DNA of 33,009 nt from a virus, in IMG/VR virus record IMGVR_UViG_3300046010_002437, positions 1 to 33,009 of that record, one strand, 5' to 3'. Within the stretch, counting starts at the first letter, position 1. Each line of letters opens with the position of its first letter. Shown in pieces: positions 4,774-33,009 of this stretch. Below the pieces are notes generated by a model. That model was given only the letters and a program-made list of their open reading frames with translations, was not told the origin of the DNA and did not search any database. Made by a program: the position numbers and the translations under genes.

Positions 4774-5421
4774 ATGATTTTTGTTTATCCATACCATTCA
4801 AGAGCTGAATCTGATTTTGAAATCAAGCAATCAATTGCAATGGTCCTCAAACTTTATCCTGGTGTAGAGATATGGACAGTTGGCAAAGCTGTGCCAGGAA
4901 TCAAAAATATTCCATGCACTCAACACAACAATATCAGAGGATGTGATGTGACCAATAGGATACTGACCTTTGCTAAGAAAATTGGAGGAGATTTCATCTA
5001 TATGAACAAAGATTTTTATATCACAAAATCATGGCAATCTCATGTGGCCATAAATATGGGATCCATCATTGTGAATCCAGAGCATGCACCCCATACTCAG
5101 ATTGCTCAACAGAATACTCTTGAATTCCTTAAGCATAACAATTTTACAGCTTATAATTTTGAAACCCACACACCAGTGATGATGAACAGCCAGAAGCTGA
5201 TTGATCTATTTGACAATATCAACTGGCAGAATGACAATCATTTTATCAAGTCAATCTATTGTAATGTGTATCAAGCCCCATCAAAGGAAGGATTCAATTG
5301 TAAGGTATCAAATCCATCCATTGCTAAGGCTCAAGAATTCATTGCAATCCAGGGATGTTTCTCAACTGGTGATAATTTCTGGAACAAGCCTTGTGTTGAA
5401 TGGATTAAAAGCTTGATTTAG
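4774..5421 (+). CDS. Glycosyltransferase-like protein; the only plus-strand gene (moron)
   Basis: The 215-aa product begins at ATG 4774 (MIFVYPYHSRAESDFEI); a TTG three codons earlier is an alternative. An opening beta strand, a GGDFIYMNKDFYI segment (about residues 70-82) and HTPVMMNSQKLIDLF (about 154-168) recall Stealth-type and related glycosyltransferases, where a (N/D)DD-like motif and a conserved His-Pro segment form the active site. Here the acidic motif is weakened to NKD, so activity is uncertain. It is transcribed against the surrounding late operon, its 3' end overlaps the tape-measure stop by 17 bp, and it has its own promoter-like element. That fits a moron acting on host or virion glycans. 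Family assignment is tentative. Confidence 0.6.
   Translation: MIFVYPYHSRAESDFEIKQSIAMVLKLYPGVEIWTVGKAVPGIKNIPCTQHNNIRGCDVTNRILTFAKKIGGDFIYMNKDFYITKSWQSHVAINMGSIIVNPEHAPHTQIAQQNTLEFLKHNNFTAYNFETHTPVMMNSQKLIDLFDNINWQNDNHFIKSIYCNVYQAPSKEGFNCKVSNPSIAKAQEFIAIQGCFSTGDNFWNKPCVEWIKSLI
4902..4931 (-). promoter_or_regulatory. Candidate promoter for the head genes, inside the plus-strand gene
   Basis: On the minus strand TTG (4931-4929), 19 bases, then TATTTTTG (4909-4902) matches the Bacteroidota promoter form. Start of transcription would fall near 4896, about 150 nt before the protease start. It would let the head genes be expressed despite the opposing gene. The motif is short and could be a chance match. 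Confidence 0.35.
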
Positions 5422-8062
5422 CCTCTTGCAGTTGGACCTTGTTTTGAGTCCCAGTAATATCTGATTCCAATACCACTACCTTGGCAGTTGGTACTTGTGC
5501 CTGTTGACCTTGAGTTAATTGTGCCAAGTCAGTTGTTTGAGCATTGGTATTGGCAGTGAATGAACTTGCTCCAGCTCCAGCTGTACCACCGCCACCACCA
5601 GTACCTAATTGTGGAGGAGTTGGTGCAGAGCCAGCTTGATATTTCTGATTCATTACTGCTAATGCTTGAGTAATACCTATCAATGAAGCTGATGCAATCG
5701 CAGCAATACCAGTTGGAGATGGCGGAGGACCAAATTGAGCAATCCCTTTGACAATTGCACTGGCTGTATCAATAGCAATCTGAGCTAATTTAATAGCCTT
5801 ATCTCTATTGAATTGAGCCTTCTTAATTTTCTCCTCTTCATTGTAAGCATTGAGTTGGATCTGATATTTTTGCTCTGCAAATTTCTTCTCAATCTCAGCT
5901 TTCTGATCAGCTGTCAATCCCTCTTGACTTAACTGAGCTTTAAGATTAGCATCAAGATTTGATAAATCAGCTTCTCTATTGGATGCAATCTTATTCAGTC
6001 TTGCTTGATCTATCTCATTGACAAATGCATTAATCTTTTTAAGTTCATCCAATCCTTTCTGAGCTCCCTCAATTGCAGCTGTTACACCCTTAAGTGATTC
6101 CTCTCTTGCTTTAATTTCATTAGCCTTGGCTTGATCAGCATATTTCTTATCAAGATCAGCACGTTTCTTTTTATATTGCTCATCCAATTTTAAACCAGCT
6201 TGATAGAATTCCTCCTCATCAATAGCATCAGCTTTGAATGCTGCCAAGTTAATTGCCTCTTGAGCTTTGTACCATTCATCCAAATCAAGTAATTCATTCT
6301 CTTGCTCAGAGTTTATGAATCTTTGGAACTTATTTCTAAGATCTTTTTTCTTAGCTTCTTGCTCTGCAATCTTATCAAGCTCGATCTGGTTGTACTTATT
6401 GACTATTGCGAGCCTATCTGTCTGCTCTTGTATTCTTAATTGATATTCAAGTTGGGCATTACCATGAGCCATCTCATATCTCTTATCATAAGACATTGAA
6501 AGCTCAAATAATTCCTTCTCTTTACCTTCCTTCATCAAATCAAGACTCAATTGAAATTGATCATCTTCTGCCTTAATTCTATCTTCATTCGCTTTCTTAG
6601 CAAGTTCAGCCAATCTATCAGCCTCTTCCTTAGCAGCCTTAAGCTTATCATCTTTGGCTTTCTTGATTCTATCTATTGCTTTCTTGTGAGATTCATTGGC
6701 TGCATCAGATCGTCTCTTCTCTTCCTCAATTTCCAAGATGGTTAAATCTTGAGCATTCTTTTTATTGTTTTTATATTGCTCATTGGCATTTTTCTTGGTA
6801 TCCTTTAATGACTTCTCAAGCTTCTTAGCTCTATCACTATCAGCATCACCAGTTGCTTTGAGCAATCTAATCTCATCCTCATAAGCTTTAATTTTTTCTT
6901 TCTGCATTTGAAGAATTGCCCGACCAGATTTTAAAGCTGCTCTAAGTTTTTTCTCCTCCATCTCCTCAGTGTTCTTTCCAGCTGCCTGAGCTTTGCGAAT
7001 TTCAAAGGATAAGTTTTCATCCACAGCTTGAGCTTTCTTTTTTTCAGCTACAATCTTCTTATTCATCTCCTTCTCAGTTGCATCAGTCTTGGCCTTAGCG
7101 TTAGCCTTCATCTTAGCAGTGGTCTGATCATCAATGATACCGAAATATTCAAGAGCTTTAACAACACCATATATAACACCAATTAATGGGAAGATCAGAG
7201 ATATTGCAACTTTAACAACGGGACCTAATTTATTAAATGAATTATAAGCTTTTGATACTGCAGCTGAAACCTTATCAAAATTTGCAATCAATAATCCAAC
7301 AGCAACCACAATGGCACCAATACCAGTTGCAATCAATGCCAATCTGAATAGTTTCATTGCTGTTGTTGCTCCTCCAGTTGATGTTGCCAGAGCTACATTG
7401 GCACCAGTTTGAGCTTGTGTTGTTGCGACATTAGCAATTGCTGGTGCAATAGATCCAGTAAGAATTAAGTTCTTAACTTTCTCAAGACCGTTTCTTATTT
7501 GCAATCCAAGGATAGACTCCTTATTCAAGTTATTAGCAATGACACTCACAGCATTAACCAATCCTTGAGCTGCCTGAAGCTTAATCATTGTCTGAGTTAA
7601 TGCCTCTGACTCAACTCCAGTCAATGCCACAGCTGATTGAATACCTTGGAAGGCCGCTGCTCCAGTCTCAACTCCTTTCAATGCAGTATCAACACCAATA
7701 AAGTCAGATGACAATGCTGTTGTTTGAGCTTTCAGATCACCAATCTCATCCTTAAGACTTGCAGCGTTTCTGATTGCTTGTGCTCCAATAGGAGTCTCAG
7801 TCCCAGCTTGTGCAGCCAAATTCTGATAATCCTTCATGGTCTTGGTCAACTCCCTCATGGTAAGTCCACCAGCCTCAACTCTTGCATTGAGCTCCTGTAG
7901 TTTTTGATCAAAGGTATCTATGCCAGTATTATCTGCTGCTGTTTTTTGTGTTGCCTTGAGATCTTGATTCAAGTCATTCACAGCCGCATCCATAGCTTGG
8001 ATGTCTTGCACACTGTTGCCAGTATTGACCTTAAGTGAGAATACAACTGACTTCTCTGACAT
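5405..8062 (-). CDS. Tail tape measure protein
   Basis: At 885 aa this is the longest gene. It opens with helical segments (1-200), has two hydrophobic stretches at about 240-261 (LIATGIGAIVVAVGLLIANF) and 282-303, then a very long Lys/Glu/Ala-rich coiled coil (about 330-760), and a low-complexity Gly/Ala/Gln tail with GTGGGGGTAGAGAS. Tape measures set the length of the tail tube and are ejected with DNA; the hydrophobic part may help form a channel in the host membrane. By the common rule of about 0.15 nm per residue the tail would be near 130 nm (inference). It overlaps the upstream 80-aa gene by one base. Confidence 0.9.
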   Translation of the reverse strand: MSEKSVVFSLKVNTGNSVQDIQAMDAAVNDLNQDLKATQKTAADNTGIDTFDQKLQELNARVEAGGLTMRELTKTMKDYQNLAAQAGTETPIGAQAIRNAASLKDEIGDLKAQTTALSSDFIGVDTALKGVETGAAAFQGIQSAVALTGVESEALTQTMIKLQAAQGLVNAVSVIANNLNKESILGLQIRNGLEKVKNLILTGSIAPAIANVATTQAQTGANVALATSTGGATTAMKLFRLALIATGIGAIVVAVGLLIANFDKVSAAVSKAYNSFNKLGPVVKVAISLIFPLIGVIYGVVKALEYFGIIDDQTTAKMKANAKAKTDATEKEMNKKIVAEKKKAQAVDENLSFEIRKAQAAGKNTEEMEEKKLRAALKSGRAILQMQKEKIKAYEDEIRLLKATGDADSDRAKKLEKSLKDTKKNANEQYKNNKKNAQDLTILEIEEEKRRSDAANESHKKAIDRIKKAKDDKLKAAKEEADRLAELAKKANEDRIKAEDDQFQLSLDLMKEGKEKELFELSMSYDKRYEMAHGNAQLEYQLRIQEQTDRLAIVNKYNQIELDKIAEQEAKKKDLRNKFQRFINSEQENELLDLDEWYKAQEAINLAAFKADAIDEEEFYQAGLKLDEQYKKKRADLDKKYADQAKANEIKAREESLKGVTAAIEGAQKGLDELKKINAFVNEIDQARLNKIASNREADLSNLDANLKAQLSQEGLTADQKAEIEKKFAEQKYQIQLNAYNEEEKIKKAQFNRDKAIKLAQIAIDTASAIVKGIAQFGPPPSPTGIAAIASASLIGITQALAVMNQKYQAGSAPTPPQLGTGGGGGTAGAGASSFTANTNAQTTDLAQLTQGQQAQVPTAKVVVLESDITGTQNKVQLQEAKSSF

Positions 8063-12552: not shown

Positions 12553-13730
12553 TAGTTAAGTTGTGATCTATAAGTGAATGTTCTTTCAATGCTTACTGTC
12601 TCTTGAATCAAGCCATCTCTTCTCCTATTCTTAAGAGTATATGATGAGTTTGTTACCTTTACTGGCTCAAATGCTGTGCCATTGTCCCTCTCAAGATAAA
12701 CAAGTGGTGAATCATATAATGAGTTAACCAACCATTGCTGAACGTCTTGATTAATCCAGTCCGAATTCAAAACCAATTGCTCTGACTTAGTCTTGGCAAA
12801 GTCTATCTTCTGACCAGCATAAAGTGGATATGTGTAACTTGTACCATCCCAGACTCCTGGATCACGTTGATATCCGAATGATTGAACAGTTGCTGATTCA
12901 GTTGATACCAATCCAAAAGTGAATGAATCAAAGGAGCCAAGCTTATTCAACCAATGCAATCTATAAGTGTCATATCTCTTGCAATCACTATCAAGATATA
13001 TCTTAAATGATTCTGTTGCTTGATCAGTCAATTCAACTTGGACAATGTAATAATAGCAGTCATCAAAATCAGCCGCAACTAATGATGTATTATCAATTAA
13101 TACTTGAGGACCAACATTAATGATATTGAATTCTGTTGATGTTAAAGTTAAGCTTGCATAAGTAGTGTTATTGTTGTTGATATCGAATATGTTAACAAGT
13201 AATGTGGCAACCTCAAGACCAGTCTGCTCAAAATATCCAAGAAAGAAATTTTCATCCAATCCACACAATGCTCTTTTATTCCTTGGAAAGTAAGTCAGAA
13301 ACAATGAGGATCCTGTCAGTTGTGGATCATAATCAGAATAATCCCATGAAACAAAATCAGAGTATTCAATTGATCCATTAAATGCTTTAACTGTTGAGCT
13401 GGTATCACTATCTTGAATGGTTGGTGTTGCTCCATATTTCTCATATACAATGATGTAATATTCAACCATAGAATCAGTGGCATCATACTCAAGATCAGTT
13501 GTGATTCTGATGTTGCTCAATGTACTTTGAACAGCTTCAGATACATCAATGCGACCAAGTGTATTGAATTGCCTGAATACCTCTTGAGTTATTCTCAATA
13601 AGCCATCAATGTAAATCTCAACCATAAAAGAGAAATTCACTTGAGCAGTCTGATCACTGCTAAACGTAAAAACCAACGGATTTCCAGCTGGTGAAATCAA
13701 TTGAGGCTCATCATATATTGTTACTGCCAT
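12552..13730 (-). CDS. Tail-tip/distal tail-like protein, 392 aa
   Basis: The product starts MAVTIYDEPQLISPAGNPLV and is rich in beta strand and acidic residues. The opening phrase and a C-terminal stretch ending QETVSIERTFTYRSQLN look like the protein that precedes the large hub gene in related phages. A distal-tail or baseplate role is inferred from order: tail completion protein upstream, 793-aa hub protein downstream. It overlaps the gp10-like gene by 20 nt and the hub gene by one base, so all three are probably translationally coupled. Confidence 0.65.
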   Translation of the reverse strand: MAVTIYDEPQLISPAGNPLVFTFSSDQTAQVNFSFMVEIYIDGLLRITQEVFRQFNTLGRIDVSEAVQSTLSNIRITTDLEYDATDSMVEYYIIVYEKYGATPTIQDSDTSSTVKAFNGSIEYSDFVSWDYSDYDPQLTGSSLFLTYFPRNKRALCGLDENFFLGYFEQTGLEVATLLVNIFDINNNNTTYASLTLTSTEFNIINVGPQVLIDNTSLVAADFDDCYYYIVQVELTDQATESFKIYLDSDCKRYDTYRLHWLNKLGSFDSFTFGLVSTESATVQSFGYQRDPGVWDGTSYTYPLYAGQKIDFAKTKSEQLVLNSDWINQDVQQWLVNSLYDSPLVYLERDNGTAFEPVKVTNSSYTLKNRRRDGLIQETVSIERTFTYRSQLN

Positions 13731-14235
13731 TTCTTGTAAAATTTATTTCAAACATTAATCCAGTCAACTCAGCCAAGTCATTACCAATCTTCTCAAGTAC
13801 CTCATCAGTAACTACATTATCAGTGATCCTCTTTGGTCTCAATCCTCGCTGCTTGATGTTATAACTTACAGCATAAGCATGATCCATATCAAATCCTTTC
13901 CACTCGCTGATTGCCTTAGCCATATTATGACTGACTCCAGGATATCTGAATGAGAATTGACTGCCATAGTTATTGGTGCCAACAGCGTTGACTCCCTCAT
14001 CAACAAATGGATAATAATCTTCTGCCTCTAATCTGAATGATAGTGTACCAGTTGGTACTGGAATAATTGAGGCTGCCAATGCTCCAGTGTTCTGAGCTAC
14101 CTTCTTAGTGTAATCTCTGAATTCAGTTGCAAGTCTTGTTGATAACTCAGTTATAAATTTATCATAAACACTCTGAGGCTTCTCAGCTTCCTGAGTAGTG
14201 ATACCAAAGTCCTCAAGAAAATCAAAGTCTGCCAT
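13711..14235 (-). CDS. HK97 gp10-like tail completion protein
   Basis: The 174-aa product has an N-terminal helical region with AQNTGALAASI (about residues 47-57), then YYPFVDEGVNAVG (about 73-85), the Phe-x-Asp/Glu-Gly-Val pattern characteristic of HK97 gp10-type proteins, followed by FSFRYP. Such proteins close the tail tube and connect it to the head. It starts inside the end of the frame-shifted form of the upstream chaperone gene (14-nt overlap) and overlaps the next gene by 20 nt. Confidence 0.75.
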   Translation of the reverse strand: MADFDFLEDFGITTQEAEKPQSVYDKFITELSTRLATEFRDYTKKVAQNTGALAASIIPVPTGTLSFRLEAEDYYPFVDEGVNAVGTNNYGSQFSFRYPGVSHNMAKAISEWKGFDMDHAYAVSYNIKQRGLRPKRITDNVVTDEVLEKIGNDLAELTGLMFEINFTRNGSNNI

Positions 14236-15012
14236 TACTTAATATGCGTTTATGTTCGTTCTCATCCACTATTCTAAAATAGTTCATCCAGAACAATGTT
14301 GTCACATAAGGCTGTTGTGTAACCTTTGCCACACTGACTCCCATTTCTTTGGATAATCTATGGATGATAGTGGTCCAATTAAACCACTCTGAATCTTTAA
14401 GTCCTGCTCCATCATCATCATTTCCATCCTCTGCCTCGCCATCTGTATCCCTAATATAGCGAGCCTCCGCTTCTCCGATAAGTCTAAAAAAAAACTGAAA
14501 AAGTTCAAAAACTCATCCCCTGGAAAGTGTTCTAAAAACTCCTTATATCTATGATCATTAGGATTTAGCACTCTTCCTCTGTCATCTTCCTGACAGTACT
14601 CCATGCCCTTCTCAACATACATAATTGCCAATGCTTGACATGGATCTTGGCTGATATCTTCAATCAATTTCAAATCAATAATCTGACCAGTTGATACATG
14701 AGCAAAGTTTTTCTCAAGTTGATACATCTTACCATTAACCTCAATCTCTGACTTTGGATCCTGGTACTGATAGCTTACCAATAACTGGAGGAGATGATTG
14801 GCCGCACCTTGAATGCTTTCAATATCAGCTCGCTTGATCTTGTTAATTGACTCACCACTAAATAAACTCAGCAACTGACATTGGAATATTAACAATTGAG
14901 TGATGTCATCTTTCTGCTCCTTCATTGCCTCTGCCATCATTAACCATCTGGTCATCTGTACTGGGGTGCAGTTAGCTAATGTAGTTGGTAATTTTATATC
15001 AAGTTGCTTCAT
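14222..15012 (-). CDS. Tail assembly chaperone, -1 frameshift fusion (GT-like)
   Basis: If ribosomes slip back one base on the T9 run (14486-14494), reading continues for 87 codons from AGA at 14485 to TGA at 14224-14222, giving a protein of about 263 aa. I checked every codon and there is no stop. The added part has a short acidic linker (GEAEDGNDDDGAGLKDSEW), then a compact helical domain (TTIIHRLSKEMGVSVAKVTQ, then PYVTTLFWMNYFRIVDENEH) that looks like a coding domain, not chance sequence. The stop falls 14 nt inside the next gene. A programmed -1 shift in tail chaperones is well known from lambda G/GT; its use here is inferred. Confidence 0.6.
14302..15012 (-). CDS. Tail assembly chaperone, zero-frame product (G-like)
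   Basis: The 236-aa product opens MKQLDIKLPTTLANCTPVQM, matching the short N-terminal Leu-Pro-x-x-(8)-Q pattern of tail chaperones in phages of Bacteroidota. It continues with a Leu-rich helical region, a beta insertion (EIEVNGKMYQLEKNF) and a C-terminal helical part ending FLNFFSFFLDLSEKRR. Tail chaperones bind the tape measure and help the tube polymerise. A run of nine T follows codon 172 and gives a -1 frameshift form described separately. After the slip the zero frame adds 60 residues (MEMMMMEQDLK and onward). The gene overlaps the terminase by 4 nt (ATGA). Unusually, five other genes separate it from the tape measure. Confidence 0.7.
   Translation of the reverse strand: MKQLDIKLPTTLANCTPVQMTRWLMMAEAMKEQKDDITQLLIFQCQLLSLFSGESINKIKRADIESIQGAANHLLQLLVSYQYQDPKSEIEVNGKMYQLEKNFAHVSTGQIIDLKLIEDISQDPCQALAIMYVEKGMEYCQEDDRGRVLNPNDHRYKEFLEHFPGDEFLNFFSFFLDLSEKRRLAILGIQMARQRMEMMMMEQDLKIQSGLIGPLSSIDYPKKWESVWQRLHNSLM
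14485..14497 (-). other. Slippery sequence for -1 frameshifting
   Basis: The minus strand reads C-A-G, nine T, A. In the zero frame this is AGT TTT TTT TTA, so both tRNAs can re-pair after a slip of -1. A homopolymer of this length could also be miscounted: a tenth T would join the two frames outright. No clear downstream stem-loop was identified by eye. Confidence 0.6.
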
Positions 15013-16211
15013 ACTCTTAACGCCATATATCTGCCTCGGTTAGTGAATTCCTTTCTGCTATGCCAAGCCAATGCTGTTGAGATGACACCATCATCATGGA
15101 GTCCAGCTGGAGCAGAGTAACTCACATTCCTTGTGTTTGGATTGTAAATATAGGAAAAATTATCCAACTCATCTATCAACCATTGATCATTAACAATTGA
15201 GATTGATTGCTGCTCAAATGCAACAGCCAAGTCCTCAATTATGATCGGCTTTGTTTTGGATGTTGTTACAAATGGATGGATCAGATTCTTGCATCTAACC
15301 TGGAGCATCTCAAAGAACACATCACCTTGATTGTTCACCTCCACCAATGTGGTTGCATTGTATTGCTTTATCAACTCAGCCACCTTCTCAATGATCTTGC
15401 TCCACTCATCATGACGCCATCTATGAGCAGCGACCATCTGTCCATCCTGGTTGATGATAGTCAGAACAGTGTAGTCATCAGCTCTACCTATGTCAAGACC
15501 AGCATACATCTTTGCAGTCTTGGATCCAGTTCCTATGCATTCAGATACGTTCCTGAATATACCACTGGCATTGTCAATGAACTCAGCCAGATACTCTTGC
15601 CTAAAGACATAATCTGGAAGGGATCGCTTTCTTTCATCCAGCTCCCTTGGATCAATCATAGGATTGTCATAAGATGTGAAATGAAAGTAAGCATAGCGAT
15701 CATCATAGTTTGGTTGCATGCACAGCTTATGGAAATGATTCTTGCCTTTTGGAGTTGATATAAATATGATCTTCTTTCCTTTGACCAGGACAGTTGCACT
15801 CAACACCTCATCCCATAACTCTGGTCTGGTGAATGCCATCTCATCAACAACCATGTAATCAAATGTATTGCCTCGGATGTTGTCTGGTCTCTCACCTGAA
15901 AAGAATTCAATGGTTGATCCAAAGCCAGTGATCATAAGATCTGATCTATTGAACGTGAACAATCCACTTGCTGATGTTGCTCTCTCCATCTCAGAGAATA
16001 CCTTCTTACCTTGCTTATATACTGGAGTTACCCATGCGATTTTACAGCCTTTATCATTGATGGCCCACCATAGGAGTTGGTTGATTCCAAGCATAGTCTT
16101 TCCGAACTGCCTCCCAATATTGAGAGCATAATATTTTTCATGGCCATGGTTGATGGCATCATGAATCTCTCGCTGTTTGTCATGTGGTTTGTAGCCTTTG
16201 ACTGTACTCAT
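15009..16211 (-). CDS. terL: Terminase large subunit
   Basis: The 400-aa packaging motor has an N-terminal ATPase and a C-terminal RNase H-like nuclease. Visible motifs: Walker A GRQFGKT (33-39), Walker B YMVVDE (119-124), coupling motif ISTP (151-154), first nuclease acid in AGLDIG (Asp240) and a late HDDGVISTALA motif (about 376-386). It pumps DNA into the procapsid through the portal and cuts the concatemer. It is slightly short for the family but all motifs are present. It overlaps the small subunit and the chaperone gene by 4 nt each (ATGA junctions). The order terminase, tail, head, portal is unusual. Confidence 0.95.
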   Translation of the reverse strand: MSTVKGYKPHDKQREIHDAINHGHEKYYALNIGRQFGKTMLGINQLLWWAINDKGCKIAWVTPVYKQGKKVFSEMERATSASGLFTFNRSDLMITGFGSTIEFFSGERPDNIRGNTFDYMVVDEMAFTRPELWDEVLSATVLVKGKKIIFISTPKGKNHFHKLCMQPNYDDRYAYFHFTSYDNPMIDPRELDERKRSLPDYVFRQEYLAEFIDNASGIFRNVSECIGTGSKTAKMYAGLDIGRADDYTVLTIINQDGQMVAAHRWRHDEWSKIIEKVAELIKQYNATTLVEVNNQGDVFFEMLQVRCKNLIHPFVTTSKTKPIIIEDLAVAFEQQSISIVNDQWLIDELDNFSYIYNPNTRNVSYSAPAGLHDDGVISTALAWHSRKEFTNRGRYMALRV

Positions 16212-16642: not shown

Positions 16643-17710
16643 TTAATTACAATACTTAACATAGAAAGTATATGGCACCACTTTAAGCTTAGCAAGCAAC
16701 CAGATAAGATGCTTATATTTTTTAAAGTCATATTTATCATATAGGGCACGATCTCCCATTCTCATGTTGACCATTCTAAGAATCTTTTCAGCTCGATCTC
16801 CGAACTTAGTGAAATCAAACTCTGACTTCTTACTGAAGATCTCTCTTGCCTCTTCTTTTGAGAGCTTACCACTTCTCACTTGAGCTGATAGGTAAACAAT
16901 TCGTTTGTCAATGTTGAACTTCTCTGGCAGAAGGAATGAGCCAACAAACTCAGTGTAAACATTCTCACAATGCTTGCCACCATAATCTTGCCAGTTGATT
17001 AACCGCTTCATTTCAGCCTCCATTGAATCCCTATCGAATCCATAATGAAATGGCCTCACATTCTTGATTCCAACCGCAGCATAAAACAGCTGATCTTTGA
17101 AAGTAAATAGAGGATAATTCTGAAGCTTCAATCCAGTGTACTTGTTGTATATTGACTGAATGTATTTTGCATCCATATAGGTCCATCCTTTTGGAGTTGA
17201 GCCTTCAGTTCTGAAATCATGACCATTCAGAATGTACTTTATACCATACTTGTAAGCTGTATCATACATCAACTTAGTCATTGCAATATCATTTGGAATA
17301 TCAGCATCAGGAACTCCAGCCACAAGGAAGGCATCATTCAATCTATCATACTCACCCTTGTTGACAGTATATGTGATTGAGTCAACACCAAGCAACTTGA
17401 CTAACTGACTCATGTTGTGAATAGCCTCTGGAGCATTCCAATGATTATCAAAGTGAATCACCAAAGGTTTAAGATTCCAATATCTCACCGCAGTGAATAA
17501 CAGTGTTGAGGAATCAATCCCTCCAGATATTCCCATGATACAGTCGTAGGTCTTATCCTTACCAGCTTGCTTTATCTTTGCAATTATATGTTTAAGTTCA
17601 TGAGGATTGGCTTGCAACTCAAGCTCATCATGTAAATCACAGTACTCACATTGATGCTCACCTATTGAGGCAATTGACTCATCAAATAAACAACGTGGAC
17701 ATTCTTTCAT
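16643..17710 (-). CDS. N-acetyl sugar amidotransferase-like PP-loop ATPase
   Basis: The 355-aa protein has an N-terminal zinc-type pair CPRC (4-7) and CEYC (21-24), the PP-loop SGGIDSS (62-68), and further family-like segments (IHFDNHWNAPEA; YILNGHDFRTEGSTPKGW). This is the layout of WbpG/PseA-type enzymes, which turn an acetamido sugar into an acetamidino form using ammonia supplied by a HisH/HisF-like pair. No such partner is encoded here, so it would borrow host partners or do something else. It lies 3 nt after the 246-aa glycosyltransferase-like gene and 39 nt before the terminase small subunit, inside the main operon. A role in modifying host surface or virion glycan is inferred. Confidence 0.8.
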   Translation of the reverse strand: MKECPRCLFDESIASIGEHQCEYCDLHDELELQANPHELKHIIAKIKQAGKDKTYDCIMGISGGIDSSTLLFTAVRYWNLKPLVIHFDNHWNAPEAIHNMSQLVKLLGVDSITYTVNKGEYDRLNDAFLVAGVPDADIPNDIAMTKLMYDTAYKYGIKYILNGHDFRTEGSTPKGWTYMDAKYIQSIYNKYTGLKLQNYPLFTFKDQLFYAAVGIKNVRPFHYGFDRDSMEAEMKRLINWQDYGGKHCENVYTEFVGSFLLPEKFNIDKRIVYLSAQVRSGKLSKEEAREIFSKKSEFDFTKFGDRAEKILRMVNMRMGDRALYDKYDFKKYKHLIWLLAKLKVVPYTFYVKYCN

Positions 17711-17713
17711 AGT

Positions 17714-18454
17714 TTAATTTATATAAAGCCATTCAGGCTCAAATTTATAAAATTCATTAACATTAACTAAATTATCATCTAATTGTTTAAACTTAGGATT
17801 GTTAATATGATTTTCAATATCTTGAATACTATTCCAGCTTAAGCAATTATCAAAGTCTTGAGTATTAGTCACACAATACTTGCCTTGCATAGAAAGTTCC
17901 ATAATTGTCTGAGCTCCTCCACAATAATTATTCAAAACTAATCCAATATAGCATTGATTATATATGTCATATTTTGCTCCTTGATGCCATTGCTCTTGAC
18001 TATATTGATTACCAGCAAGGATAATGTCATATTTCAATTGCAGTTCAGATATTATATCCATTCTATGATAATCATTTGATGTAGATGGACAATAAGCAAA
18101 TATCTTATTGCCAGTCTTTTGTTGATAGATATTTTCTGTTATTAACAAAGGATTAGAAAATACTGTATTCACATTAAACTCTTTAAATCTTTGTTGCATT
18201 ATTTTTGAGCCTGTGATATTAATTATATTATCTCTTTTAAAAATATCAAAATCATCCCACATCATTGAATCATAACCACACCATAGAATGAAAGCTTTTG
18301 AATGATGATTTTTAATTACCTCAATATCTTTATCAGAATAAACTCCAATAAATAGACATGGTTTCATTGAATCATAATATGGCTTAACATTTAATCTATT
18401 AAACCAATCAAAGTCATTAACTGATTTACTCACATAAGCCTGATCTATTCTCAT
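17714..18454 (-). CDS. Glycosyltransferase-like protein, GT-B type (probable)
   Basis: The 246-aa product has an N-terminal Rossmann-like half (CLFIGVYSDKDIEVIKNHH, then AFILWCGYDSMMW) and a C-terminal half ending in NYCGGAQTIMELSMQGKYCV (about 173-192). That last pattern, a Gly-rich turn before a short conserved helix with Glu, is the nucleotide-sugar-binding part of GT-B enzymes. It is short for a full GT-B enzyme. It starts in an ATGA overlap with the 232-aa gene and ends 3 nt before the amidotransferase gene. Donor and acceptor cannot be told. Confidence 0.65.
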   Translation of the reverse strand: MRIDQAYVSKSVNDFDWFNRLNVKPYYDSMKPCLFIGVYSDKDIEVIKNHHSKAFILWCGYDSMMWDDFDIFKRDNIINITGSKIMQQRFKEFNVNTVFSNPLLITENIYQQKTGNKIFAYCPSTSNDYHRMDIISELQLKYDIILAGNQYSQEQWHQGAKYDIYNQCYIGLVLNNYCGGAQTIMELSMQGKYCVTNTQDFDNCLSWNSIQDIENHINNPKFKQLDDNLVNVNEFYKFEPEWLYIN

Positions 18455-19149
18455 AACATTTTTTTTAATTCATTAAACTCTTTATCAAGCAATCCAGATG
18501 AACACCTCTCAGATCTCAGTGAGCCATCCCAATGGTCTCTGAATTTATGCTTGTTATTCCATTTATCCGTTGAGATGGATAGCAACTGAACTGATCTATC
18601 ACATTCAAGGATTCCAATATCTTGATTTGTTTTAATAGCCTTCAGCCACATGGACCAATCAAGTCCAGAGTTAAGTCTTGGATCAAATGGAGTCCAGTTA
18701 ATTTTCTCCATGAATTGCCGATTAAGAAAGCGACCAATACCAATTGGCTCATTTTCTCTCACTTGATCCTTATAACCTTTCCAATGGACAAGTCTGATAT
18801 AGTCAGACACATCAGCAAAGTGACAGCCAAGTTGCCCTATCACTCCAAAGTCTTTGCTGTGCTCTTTACATCTTTCAATATAGCCATCACTACACCAGTC
18901 AGATGAACCCATGAAGATCACAGCATCAGGATTGTAATTCTTTGAGGCTTGGAATCCAGCATTCCACTTTGTGCCAAGAGGATCATTACTAATTGAGATA
19001 AACTCACAATCAAATTCCTTTGCTATCTCATTAGCTTCGCTCTCATGACCTAAAACAATCGGAGTGACTCCTTGCCGCTTAAGTCTTGAGATAGTTAGTC
19101 TGACAAGAGGAAAGCGACCAAATACTGGTATTGGTGCGGTTATAATCAT
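18451..19149 (-). CDS. Glycosyltransferase-like protein, GT-A/family 2 type
   Basis: The 232-aa product begins with a GT-A style N-terminus (MIITAPIPVFGRFPLVRLTI), a typical NDPLGTKWNAGFQASK segment (55-70), and DAVIFMGSSDWCSDGY (75-90), which stands where the DXD metal/sugar-binding motif is expected but has only one acid (Asp84). A later GLDWSMWLKA (near 163) may hold the acceptor-side acid. It would transfer a sugar from a nucleotide donor. It is coupled by ATGA overlaps to the 78-aa gene upstream and the 246-aa gene downstream. Confidence 0.7.
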   Translation of the reverse strand: MIITAPIPVFGRFPLVRLTISRLKRQGVTPIVLGHESEANEIAKEFDCEFISISNDPLGTKWNAGFQASKNYNPDAVIFMGSSDWCSDGYIERCKEHSKDFGVIGQLGCHFADVSDYIRLVHWKGYKDQVRENEPIGIGRFLNRQFMEKINWTPFDPRLNSGLDWSMWLKAIKTNQDIGILECDRSVQLLSISTDKWNNKHKFRDHWDGSLRSERCSSGLLDKEFNELKKML

Positions 19150-22464: not shown

Positions 22465-22674
22465 TTATTCTGATTTAAAAGTTTCTACTTTAATATACCC
22501 ATCTCTATACTCTGTAACTATTGTTTCTTCTTTGTGATACATATCTTTCCACTCCTTCCATGTATCAAAGTCTTGTAACTTTTCTAACATCCATTTAGCA
22601 CCTGCAATCCAATTGTCTGTCTTGTCTACATTTGGGTCAGCTAAATTAGCAGCAGCCTCTTCAAGTGTTTTCAT
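22465..22674 (-). CDS. Small TFKSE-tailed protein, paralogue 3, 69 aa
   Basis: I choose the ATG at 22674 (MKTLEEAAANLADPNVDKTD) because it lies one base after the upstream stop; a longer in-frame start would run into that gene. It is acidic and helical with DNWIAGAKWMLEKLQDF and ends VETFKSE. The ending and 5' junction are shared with the two genes upstream. No function is known. The related proteins in other phages of Bacteroidota are equally unassigned. Confidence 0.6.
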   Translation of the reverse strand: MKTLEEAAANLADPNVDKTDNWIAGAKWMLEKLQDFDTWKEWKDMYHKEETIVTEYRDGYIKVETFKSE

Positions 22675-22705
22675 TCTATTCTGATTTAAAGGTTTTGTTG
22701 TAGTA
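22667..22705. repeat. 39-bp direct repeat, copy 1
   Basis: This sequence is identical over 39 bases to 22890-22928. It covers the end of one TFKSE gene and the start of the next (…TTTAAATCAGAATAGAATGA on the minus strand). A shorter, imperfect copy lies at 22461-22480. The repeats are at gene junctions, as expected if gene copies arose by tandem duplication. Confidence 0.9.
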
Positions 22706-22897
22706 TTGTTCGCTTGATGATTCACTATCCCAATTTGTAGTGCCATCAAACCAAGCCTCCATTATCTGCTCTTTCTCCATTTCTAAAAACTTGTGAAAGT
22801 TATTTACAAACTCCCTGCCTTGTTGCGTATAAATGTCAAATAAAGACGGATGCAACCTTTCTAATTCGCTAAATGCTTCTTGTAATGCTGTTTTCAT
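22676..22897 (-). CDS. Small TFKSE-tailed protein, paralogue 2, 73 aa
   Basis: The start is at 22897 (MKTALQEAFSELERLHPSLF), one base after the previous stop. It contains FLEMEKEQIMEAWFDGT and ends EQYYNKTFKSE, the pattern EKxQI-x-A...YYNxTF common in small proteins of Bacteroidota phages. The 39-bp repeat covers its first codons and the 3' end of the gene before it. Function unknown. Confidence 0.65.
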   Translation of the reverse strand: MKTALQEAFSELERLHPSLFDIYTQQGREFVNNFHKFLEMEKEQIMEAWFDGTTNWDSESSSEQYYNKTFKSE

Positions 22898-22928
22898 TCT
22901 ATTCTGATTTAAAGGTTTTGTTGTAGTA
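22890..22928. repeat. 39-bp direct repeat, copy 2
   Basis: This is a perfect match to 22667-22705, 223 bp away, at the junction of paralogues 1 and 2. Homologous recombination between copies would delete or duplicate exactly one gene. Confidence 0.9.
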
Positions 22929-23117
22929 ATTTTCATCTGTTGGATTTAATCCGTCAAAATAATCAGCACCAAAAATATCTCCTTGCATAAAAGCCGACAT
23001 AATTTGTTGCTTTTCAATCTCTTGGGCTTTTTCAATTATTGGTTCATCCATTTGAATTGTTAAACCAGTTAGTTTATTTATTTCTTCAACCAACCATTCT
23101 ACTGCTGTTTGTTTCAT
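22899..23117 (-). CDS. Small TFKSE-tailed protein, paralogue 1, 72 aa
   Basis: The product begins MKQTAVEWLVEEINKLTG and contains AQEIEKQQIMSAFMQGD and ENYYNKTFKSE at the end. The MKQTAVEWL opening and EKQQI...YYNxTF ending define a small protein family widespread in Flavobacterium-type phages and mobile elements. Function unknown. It follows the primase-helicase gene, whose stop is at 23119, by one base. Confidence 0.7.
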   Translation of the reverse strand: MKQTAVEWLVEEINKLTGLTIQMDEPIIEKAQEIEKQQIMSAFMQGDIFGADYFDGLNPTDENYYNKTFKSE

Positions 23118-25478: not shown

Positions 25479-25549
25479 TACTGTGTAAAAAAAAAAAGGA
25501 GGAAAGGACACAGTAACCTTTTACAGGGCAGCTAACCGCAAACCTCCTA
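25479..25549 (-). promoter_or_regulatory. Structured leader RNA with terminator-like end (attenuator candidate)
   Basis: Read on the minus strand, a leader starting near 25547 can fold into three stems: P1 AGGAGG/CCTCCT closing the structure (25543-25548 with 25497-25502), P2 GCGG/CTGC with loop TTAG (25528-25539), and P3 AAAGG/CCTTT (25503-25507 with 25517-25521). Eleven T follow P1, as in an intrinsic terminator. A competing pairing exists: TACTGTGT in the P3 loop (25508-25515) is complementary over 8 bases to ACACAGTA after the T run (25479-25486). That could act as a pseudoknot or an alternative fold freeing the primase start. I recognise no known riboswitch class. Confidence 0.5.
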
Positions 25550-30592: not shown

Positions 30593-32554
30593 TTATCTTT
30601 TTACAACTAATTGCTGAATCCATTCATGTCTACACCATGGTGTTGATACTTGAGTATCTGGATTGGTATACCATCCTCCTCTGTATTTCCACACATCTCT
30701 ATCAACTCGGCCAGAGATAGTGTTAATTTCATCCTTTGTGTATAATCTATTGAGACCAAGTAATCTCTCACAAAATTGTCTTGAGCCACTCTTTGCCGGT
30801 GGAACATCAAGTCTTGTTCTGTATCCATAACGAACCTCAAATCTTTCAATTGGAATATCAACCTCTCTGACCAATGACTTTCCCAAATCAGTGACCTCAC
30901 CTTTGGTGATTACTTCCCATTTCATGAGCTTAGCCATTGACTTGGCAATATCCTCAATATTTGTATCAAGAGCTTTTGCAATGCCATTTGAATCTTCACC
31001 ATCACCAATCAACTTCAGTACATTTTTATCAAAGTCATTCAGCTCTGCTGATATCTCTCCAATTGTTGCAAATAGTTGATCTTGCTTTGAGAATACATCA
31101 GCTGATGGAGTATCCCAAGCTATTGGAAATGTTGCAATCACATCATAATGATTAGCTGATTCACCATATTGTGCAAAATAACCAATCTCATCATCTGAGA
31201 ATGTATGAACATGCTTGCAAGATGACATCTGTTGTGGAGCTGAATCTAAGCCTACAATTTTGCGAGCCTGTATCTCATCAATAGTTGGAAATGATGCCAA
31301 GACAATGCTCAATGCACTCTCACTGGTCAATAATCCCTCTTTAATCTTAGCAACCACATCAATAAGTGATGCAATCTGAGCTCCATTCAATGCACTCTTA
31401 GCAACATCAACTGGTTGCTCTGCTGTTGGTTGGTCAGTTGTTGGCTGTGCTGGAGTGACTTCAGTCGCACCAATTGGTGTAACGTCTTTTAATTTAACAA
31501 CTCCAGTATCTCCTGACAGCTTAACCATATAATTAAGTATCCATTCAATTCTTTTTTGTCTTGTCTCAACATAAGTCTTTTTAAATATCTCAAAAAGATC
31601 AGCTGATTCAGCCGCATTGAATGATCCTTCTGGAGCAACTCCGAATAATGATGGAGCAACAACTGCATGAGCCACTAAAATGTTTTGCTGAACACTTGAC
31701 TCAAGAGCTTCATATCTCTTATCAAGATCATTTCCAGTTAAGCTCTCAACCTTTGGAGCCTGATCTGCTGATGGTGCAAAGGTGATTATTATATCACCGC
31801 TATTCTCAATATTGGATGCTGGTCCTTTGATTTGATTCTTGAATGATTCTGCCTCTTCTTGAGTTTCTGGAAATCCATCCATGAAAGTGATTAGAGTTCC
31901 TGACTTAAATCCATTTTGTAATTCATACATATGGAATTTAGAGATGTCAACATCAGTCTGAATTGCTGTGATTCCACCTTGATATGGTGGCTTTGGATAT
32001 ACTCCATGCTCTTTGCGAGCTTTCTTAGCTGGATCCTTGTAATATAAAACAAACGATCCTATTTTATTGTTCTCATCAAGAGCTGGAATTGTTCTAAGAT
32101 TTGTCTTCTCAGGTGATTGCTGTTGTACTGTCCAGTCATCTGATAGATAATACATTCTTTCATCTGATGATATTCTGATCGCATCAATGCCAAGATACTC
32201 CCACACAGCAACTCTGGTCCCTTCTCTATTCCAAGTACCTTTTACAGCGAATGCTCCGAATAATTCATAATCAAATGCCAATTGCTCAACTATCTCATTC
32301 ATGTTGAAATCAGAGTAAGGATTAGCAATGAATCTTGCAAGCTCACCAGATACAACCTCAAGACCTCCACCAGCAATGTAGTGAGTTTTATTCTTGATGA
32401 TTCCTTGATGCCAAGCTGATCCATTAAAAAGATCCACTAAAAAATAAGGATAATCATTCTTTTTTCCCCATTTAATAAAGCCAAGCATTCTATCTTGCTC
32501 CTCAATTGGCAGAACAAAGTCCTTTCTGAATGACATTGATTCTAACTTACTCAT
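30593..32554 (-). CDS. Portal protein fused to C-terminal domains, complete copy
   Basis: The 653-aa product has a portal core (about 1-360) with IKWGKKNDYPYFLVDLF, SGTLITFMDGFPETQEEAES and LFGVAPEGSFNAAESADLF. An Ala/Pro/Thr linker (about 365-385) follows, then a helical region (LNGAQIASLIDVVAKIKEGL). The C-terminus (about 570-653) has RYGYRTRLDVPPAKSGSRQF and TPWCRHEWIQQLVVK, a CRHxW domain seen in minor head proteins of Bacteroidota phages. The protein would thus combine portal and minor-capsid/head-morphogenesis roles. It starts in an 8-nt overlap with the 122-aa gene. The left-hand copy at 1-1113 is a variant of the first 371 codons. Confidence 0.9.
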   Translation of the reverse strand: MSKLESMSFRKDFVLPIEEQDRMLGFIKWGKKNDYPYFLVDLFNGSAWHQGIIKNKTHYIAGGGLEVVSGELARFIANPYSDFNMNEIVEQLAFDYELFGAFAVKGTWNREGTRVAVWEYLGIDAIRISSDERMYYLSDDWTVQQQSPEKTNLRTIPALDENNKIGSFVLYYKDPAKKARKEHGVYPKPPYQGGITAIQTDVDISKFHMYELQNGFKSGTLITFMDGFPETQEEAESFKNQIKGPASNIENSGDIIITFAPSADQAPKVESLTGNDLDKRYEALESSVQQNILVAHAVVAPSLFGVAPEGSFNAAESADLFEIFKKTYVETRQKRIEWILNYMVKLSGDTGVVKLKDVTPIGATEVTPAQPTTDQPTAEQPVDVAKSALNGAQIASLIDVVAKIKEGLLTSESALSIVLASFPTIDEIQARKIVGLDSAPQQMSSCKHVHTFSDDEIGYFAQYGESANHYDVIATFPIAWDTPSADVFSKQDQLFATIGEISAELNDFDKNVLKLIGDGEDSNGIAKALDTNIEDIAKSMAKLMKWEVITKGEVTDLGKSLVREVDIPIERFEVRYGYRTRLDVPPAKSGSRQFCERLLGLNRLYTKDEINTISGRVDRDVWKYRGGWYTNPDTQVSTPWCRHEWIQQLVVKR

Positions 32555-32915
32555 ATATGTTGAATGTTATGTTTGTTGAAAATTCTGTTGATGGTGAGTC
32601 AATGGTAAATACATGAGCTCTACCTTCCTCAACCAATCCATCTGATAACTCTGGATCAAGATTTGTTGTTGATGTTTGTTGATAGATTCTGTATGTGTAA
32701 TATCCATCATAATCAAAAGTTACATCCACTCCATCCTCAAGCAAAAACTCATCATATCTTGATATAGATGTACTTAAATTAGGAAGGATGCAATAGTATT
32801 TTAAAAATGATTGCTCATGCTCAAATTCAAAGAGATAGTAAACTGGACTAACTGTTGTCAGTTCCGTTACTGTTACTATCAGATTTGAAGATGTGTCCTT
32901 CTGTATTCTCAACAT
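32547..32915 (-). CDS. Small head/connector-region protein, 122 aa (right variant)
   Basis: This is the second variant of the 122-aa protein at 1106-1474, with identical ends and a changed middle (LPNLSTSISRYDEFLLEDGV followed by DVTF). It overlaps the portal start by 8 nt, as in the left copy. Confidence 0.8.
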   Translation of the reverse strand: MLRIQKDTSSNLIVTVTELTTVSPVYYLFEFEHEQSFLKYYCILPNLSTSISRYDEFLLEDGVDVTFDYDGYYTYRIYQQTSTTNLDPELSDGLVEEGRAHVFTIDSPSTEFSTNITFNIYE

Positions 32916-33009
32916 TTTTAATTAGTTTAGGTTTTTTTCTCTCGAATATATGGATCAATCCAATTGATTGGTAAAAGTCCTCTTTGCCTCTTTCAATAGT
33001 TAACCATTT
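32848..33009 (-). CDS. Hypothetical 71-aa protein, right copy (partial, cut by right edge)
   Basis: These are the last 54 codons of the gene seen whole at 1407-1622; the start lies beyond the edge. The two copies differ at only two bases here, fewer than anywhere else in the duplication, and the frame is kept. Confidence 0.45.
   Translation of the reverse strand, partial: KWLTIERGKEDFYQSIGLIHIFERKKPKLIKNVENTEGHIFKSDSNSNGTDNS

Follow-up and report, generated by a model that had tools for sequence, protein, structure and literature searches.

The window, by which we mean the whole stretch of DNA analysed here, is an IMG/VR virus record of 33,009 bases, and the gene under study, read on its minus strand, carries a run of nine T residues (T9). 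The question raised by this locus is whether such a run allows one gene to specify two proteins and, if so, by which machinery and to what end. We propose that one gene would yield two proteins with a common first ~173 residues, most of the translation keeping the zero frame and ending after a tail of ~60 residues, while a minority would enter the -1 frame at T9 and thereby gain an acidic linker and a three-helix domain. Judging from the sequence, it is probable that programmed slippage makes a tail-assembly-chaperone pair of the G/GT type here, its two products sharing their N part, and the zero-frame product would be the abundant one. The formation of two products through a -1 change at a slippery site is supported by the site, its conservation and selection on both frames, all of which, together with the absence of another route into the -1 frame, were established computationally.

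Two reading frames across the T9 run

The features of the locus are as follows.

14302..15012, minus strand: zero-frame gene for the G-like product, 236 aa, beginning at the end of the gene for the terminase large subunit (TerL)
14486..14494, minus strand: T9 slip site, zero frame AGT TTT TTT TTA, including U_UUU_UUU and U_UUU_UUA
14222..14494, minus strand: -1 frame extension, the GT-like tail, 90 aa, predicted to form a short helix, a disordered acidic linker and a three-helix domain
14416..14484, minus strand: proximal dual-coded segment, 23 codons, zero frame under strong purifying selection
14311..14415, minus strand: distal dual-coded segment, -1 frame dominant, zero frame kept open
14222..14301, minus strand: -1 extension past the zero-frame stop, single-coded except for 14 nt within the next gene
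15009..16211, minus strand: TerL, immediately upstream of the zero-frame gene (phrog_2, E 4e-46)
13711..14235, minus strand: next gene, 174 aa, a conserved downstream neighbour, gp10-like by position

An earlier note on this DNA had placed T9 at 14486-14494, in the reading AGT TTT TTT TTA, and had described a -1 frame open to a stop 14 nt inside the next gene and a zero frame long open after the slip. The window sequence agrees on each point: the run appears as A9 on the plus strand, the -1 frame has 90 open codons up to a TGA at 14222, and the frame scan gave 63 zero-frame codons from the first TTT to a TGA, the +1 frame past T9 meeting a stop after 2 codons. A family search with the downstream neighbour returned no match. 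The acidic linker and helical domain that the note had read in the -1 frame were likewise recovered, with HRLSKEMGVSVAKVTQ and FWMNYFRIVDENEH both encoded in that frame and the domain itself predicted. The -1 tail is predicted to comprise a helix at residues 2-15, the disordered acidic linker, and helices at 29-51, 55-59 and 62-88, the three-helix domain after the linker having a pLDDT of about 80. In the model of the zero-frame product, built from 40 sequences (pLDDT 75), a predicted helix at 165-208 spans the slip and enters the conserved part of the tail.

Four observations concern other parts of the window. Its ends (29-1568 and 31469-33008) form a direct repeat with 90.6% identity over 1.5 kb, each copy holding its own version of the portal end and of a 122-aa gene; the probable source is a genome that is circularly permuted and whose assembly combined two strains. 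Adjacent short open reading frames at 22465-23117 have a common C-terminus, YYNKTFKSE or KSE, and TTKPLNQNRMKT occurs in two of them, which suggests tandem duplication. Between the packaging and replication genes, 16643-19149 encodes a PP-loop ATPase-like protein (SGGIDSS motif, amidotransferase-like) and glycosyltransferase-like proteins; such genes also lie upstream of TerL in a distant relative, and the region is a possible conserved sugar-modification module. Another homopolymer, A11 at 25487-25497, closely precedes MKISVFKS, probably the genuine start of a primase-like gene listed from 25554.

Conservation of the run in two branches

We collected homologues by IMG/VR scans seeded with the window gene, with its -1 tail and, stepwise, with remoter relatives. 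A GTDB search via TerL added one MAG contig with a T9 homologue, while the T9 gene itself found no homologues in GTDB genomes and an INPHARED protein search with the window gene gave no significant matches. The phages that carry the gene form a large, mostly uncultured group. In this first branch, exactly T9 in the same phase was present in 356 of 356 loci, which include many overlapping fetches of the same contigs and correspond to 139 distinct sequences, down to ~45% identity. Since all these loci, from IMG/VR and one MAG, keep the run in one phase, it is not there by chance. The residue preceding T9 is S, G or A with T invariably as third base, and the Leu codon at the end of the run is always TTR; conditional on the encoded residues and on local codon usage, the probability of T9 was 0.005-0.14 in each of 21 representatives. 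TerL ended 0-6 nt upstream of the gene in all 135 loci with enough upstream sequence.

All 356 loci encode both a zero-frame tail (58-75 aa) and a -1 tail (87-95 aa), and in sequences down to 41% identity the -1 tail retains E10, Y13, D34, E36, W37, W40, T41, L47, P62, Y63, W69, N71 and E78. The suggestion that the -1 product is genuine and has homologues was therefore upheld: none of the loci had the zero-frame end alone or lacked the -1 product.

A structure search of viral structures with the zero-product model gave, among its matches, one at E 1.7e-6 to a protein from Nonlabens phage P12024S. In P12024L, which has been cultured (JQ823123.1, 23946-24640), gp40 follows TerL and contains T9 as CTT TTT TTT TAT, and its -1 frame runs into gp41, gp40 and gp41 being annotated as separate hypothetical genes. 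The two look like one frameshifted gene split by annotation, in which case PHROG 32199 and 38404 would be two halves of a single system. The N parts of the two branches are homologous (hhalign 96%, E 2.5e-9) with the Phe-Phe of the slip aligned; their -1 tails align only weakly (20%, E 0.0011).

We collected 63 IMG/VR relatives of gp40, one being P12024L itself, and 62 were analysable at the slip. All had T9 except for a single T10, in which a Phe codon replaces Leu/Val/Ile and the frame is kept. The register of T9 differs between the branches, which have in common an in-frame core, T_TTT_TTT_T, extended on opposite sides. Complete zero-frame tails in this second branch range from 16 to 84 codons counted from the TAY codon, mostly 55-84, and -1 tails from 82 to 94, and TerL was found within 400 nt in 44 of 58 loci. 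Flavobacterium phage 6H, considered as a further relative, was rejected, the match being weak (TM 0.28) and a clear slip not being seen.

Homopolymers are prone to error, and a true run of T10, or a misassembly, would make the locus a plain fusion gene. However, T9 recurred in the 356 loci, which come from many assemblies, and in cultured P12024L, T10 was found in 0 of the 356, and the zero frame beyond the run is under purifying selection, so that this explanation is ruled out for all practical purposes. Nor is it at all likely that the -1 reading frame is an independently initiated gene, which is how gp41 of P12024L is annotated. An ATG does occur 27-28 codons past the slip in that phage and two near relatives, but from the last stop of the -1 frame up to its conserved motif, ATG, GTG and TTG are absent in 138 of 139 first-branch sequences and in 33 of 39 from the second branch, and the codons directly past the slip are conserved. 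Since 138 of the 139 have no start-codon access to the -1 frame, we exclude that this frame is entered by internal initiation, that the gene is a fusion and that the run is a misread T10.

Selection on the two frames

We then asked how selection is distributed over the stretch read twice. Among 61 distinct close relatives, nucleotide diversity upstream of T9 peaked at codon position 3 of the zero frame (0.33), and past the zero-frame stop it peaked at position 3 of the -1 frame (0.27). In the overlap both third positions were intermediate (0.15 and 0.16, respectively), changing gradually along its length.

Substitution rates were estimated from 58 tip pairs without shared sequences, relative to synonymous changes in single-coded sequence and with the transition bias fixed at 3, such independent pairs being used in place of ancestral reconstruction. 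Over the first 23 dual codons, changes altering the zero frame and silent in the -1 frame occurred at 0.147 (0.080-0.222) of the synonymous rate and the converse changes at 0.389, while in the distal overlap the two values were 0.440 and 0.227. The -1 extension past the zero-frame stop had a nonsynonymous rate of 0.074 of the synonymous one. As the proximal 0.147 is close to the 0.164 of the upstream single-coded zero frame and the distal value is 0.440, the zero frame is as constrained just past the slip as upstream of it and is relaxed later. Both frames are thus under purifying selection, the zero frame most strongly in the first ~23 codons, and the zero-frame tail beyond these is loosely constrained yet kept open. 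Substitution patterns in the second branch gave the same selection results.

In order to evaluate this openness, we fixed the -1 protein and drew synonymous codons from local usage for 21 representatives. A zero frame open for 58 codons was expected in a mean of 11% of draws and observed in 21 of 21 representatives, which share ancestry, so that the product of their probabilities is not a P value. A similar excess was found in the second branch. From the -1 protein one would expect a much shorter open zero frame.

These data bear on whether the zero-frame tail has no function and simply results from -1 coding. The loose constraint on its distal part, a length ranging from about 16 to 86 codons across the family, and a stop whose position tracks the -1 codons and is not fixed would all fit such a by-product. 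The low rate of zero-changing, -1-silent substitutions in the first 23 codons and the avoidance of stops over 58 codons nevertheless make this unlikely.

Slippage, function and comparison with known systems

The -1 frame could be entered in two ways. The ribosome would undergo -1 tandem tRNA slippage on U_UUU_UUU or U_UUU_UUA (U_UUU_UUA/G in the first branch); alternatively, RNA polymerase would add a U while slipping on T9, part of the mRNAs would carry U10, and ordinary translation of these would give the -1 frame. From the sequences we regard the two as about even, with the ribosome slightly favoured because an in-frame heptamer of the X_XXY_YYZ type, U_UUU_UUU, is common to both branches, as ribosomal slippage needs. 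Known G/GT cases are described as ribosomal frameshifting, and the neighbouring amino acids account for much of the run length, two further points against the polymerase. Slippage by the polymerase, whose chances we put a little short of even, is favoured by a homopolymer of 9 or more A/T throughout (T9 or T10), a length kept in two remote branches, in differing registers and once as T10. Moreover, no conserved downstream stem or pseudoknot (mean folding z, -0.2 to -0.7) and no conserved upstream Shine-Dalgarno-like element was found at T9; such stimulators are common in -1 ribosomal frameshifting and are not obligatory. According to passages of PMC5009743, bacterial RNA polymerase slips with high efficiency in vivo on runs of 9 A or T, and U-only heptamers such as U_UUU_UUU and U_UUU_UUA shift less than A_AAA_AAG in E. 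coli. The earlier note had proposed a programmed -1 slip; its conserved, in-frame slip site stands, and slippage there could be by RNA polymerase as well as by the ribosome. A more specific proposal, which we hold only tentatively and think rather doubtful, is a chaperone pair produced by polymerase slippage in which the two selected C-termini from the same 55-86 codons are functional alternatives rather than a core and its extension.

Since the same architecture occurs here within a cluster of morphogenesis genes, together with a predicted helical tail that may be T-like, a tail chaperone is our best guess for the gene, held with reasonable confidence. The pair may work like lambda gpG/gpGT, with an abundant chaperone and a scarce extended form bridging tape measure and tail tube. 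The earlier assignment as a tail chaperone gene accordingly holds for the frameshift-pair architecture, but not for homology: searches against lambda G and T revealed no similarity in sequence, and the zero-frame part matched no named chaperone family in Pfam, PHROG or NCBIfam. Homology to the G family may lie beyond sequence detection, as such families diverge that far. Searching with the zero-product model, we found no matching solved structure in the PDB, and all low-E matches among viral structures were uncharacterised or unnamed proteins; a fold search with the -1 domain gave no significant match. PDB sequence matches to clostridial toxin repeats, confined to ~25 residues of a repeat-like stretch with single stretches not passing, were dismissed as chance.

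The gene adjoins TerL and not the tape measure. The candidate for the latter, at 5405-8062 and with a weak match to a PHROG tape measure (E 0.0027), lies ~6.2 kb away, and the earlier note had already called the gene far from the tape measure. A position directly upstream of the tape measure is usual for G/GT and not obligatory. This position beside TerL, and the lack of homology to known chaperones, would also suit a frameshift pair serving another step of morphogenesis, for instance head completion or packaging; we consider that a minority prospect, as a small helical protein with a -1 extension in a morphogenesis cluster is the G/GT pattern.

The putative chaperone gene of these phages is a neighbour of the terminase, a place that annotators would not think to search, and it provides a lead on function for two unknown PHROG families and for the cultured phages P12024L and P12024S. 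Their gp40 and gp41 (PHROG 32199 and 38404, function unnamed) resemble the window gene in following TerL and in a T9 slip that leads the -1 frame into gp41, and differ from it in a zero-frame tail of just 25 codons from TAT, a T9 register shifted by one and the two-gene annotation.

Like lambda gpG/gpGT, the window gene would shift to the -1 frame on a slippery heptamer close to where the unique core of the first product ends, the second product adding a domain. Lambda makes gpG and gpGT at ~30:1 for tail assembly, as stated in a passage of PMC5009743. The lambda G gene has the tail tube gene on one side and the tape measure gene on the other, whereas the window gene follows TerL, and the two have no detectable sequence homology. 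Our search of non-subscription papers found no earlier description of long same-strand dual coding made by frameshifting in tailed phages. Thermus dnaX, where transcriptional slippage on a homopolymer of nine yields several products from one gene, is similar in these respects; a long dual-coded stretch is not described for it in the passages of PMC5009743 drawn on here, while the window gene has conserved tails in both frames. In lambda, where GGGAAAG is the slip site, 6 further codons are read before G ends, against 55-86 codons in most members of the present family, so that the dual coding is unusually long. It persists among deeply diverged sequences, and the selection acting on each of the two frames can be measured.
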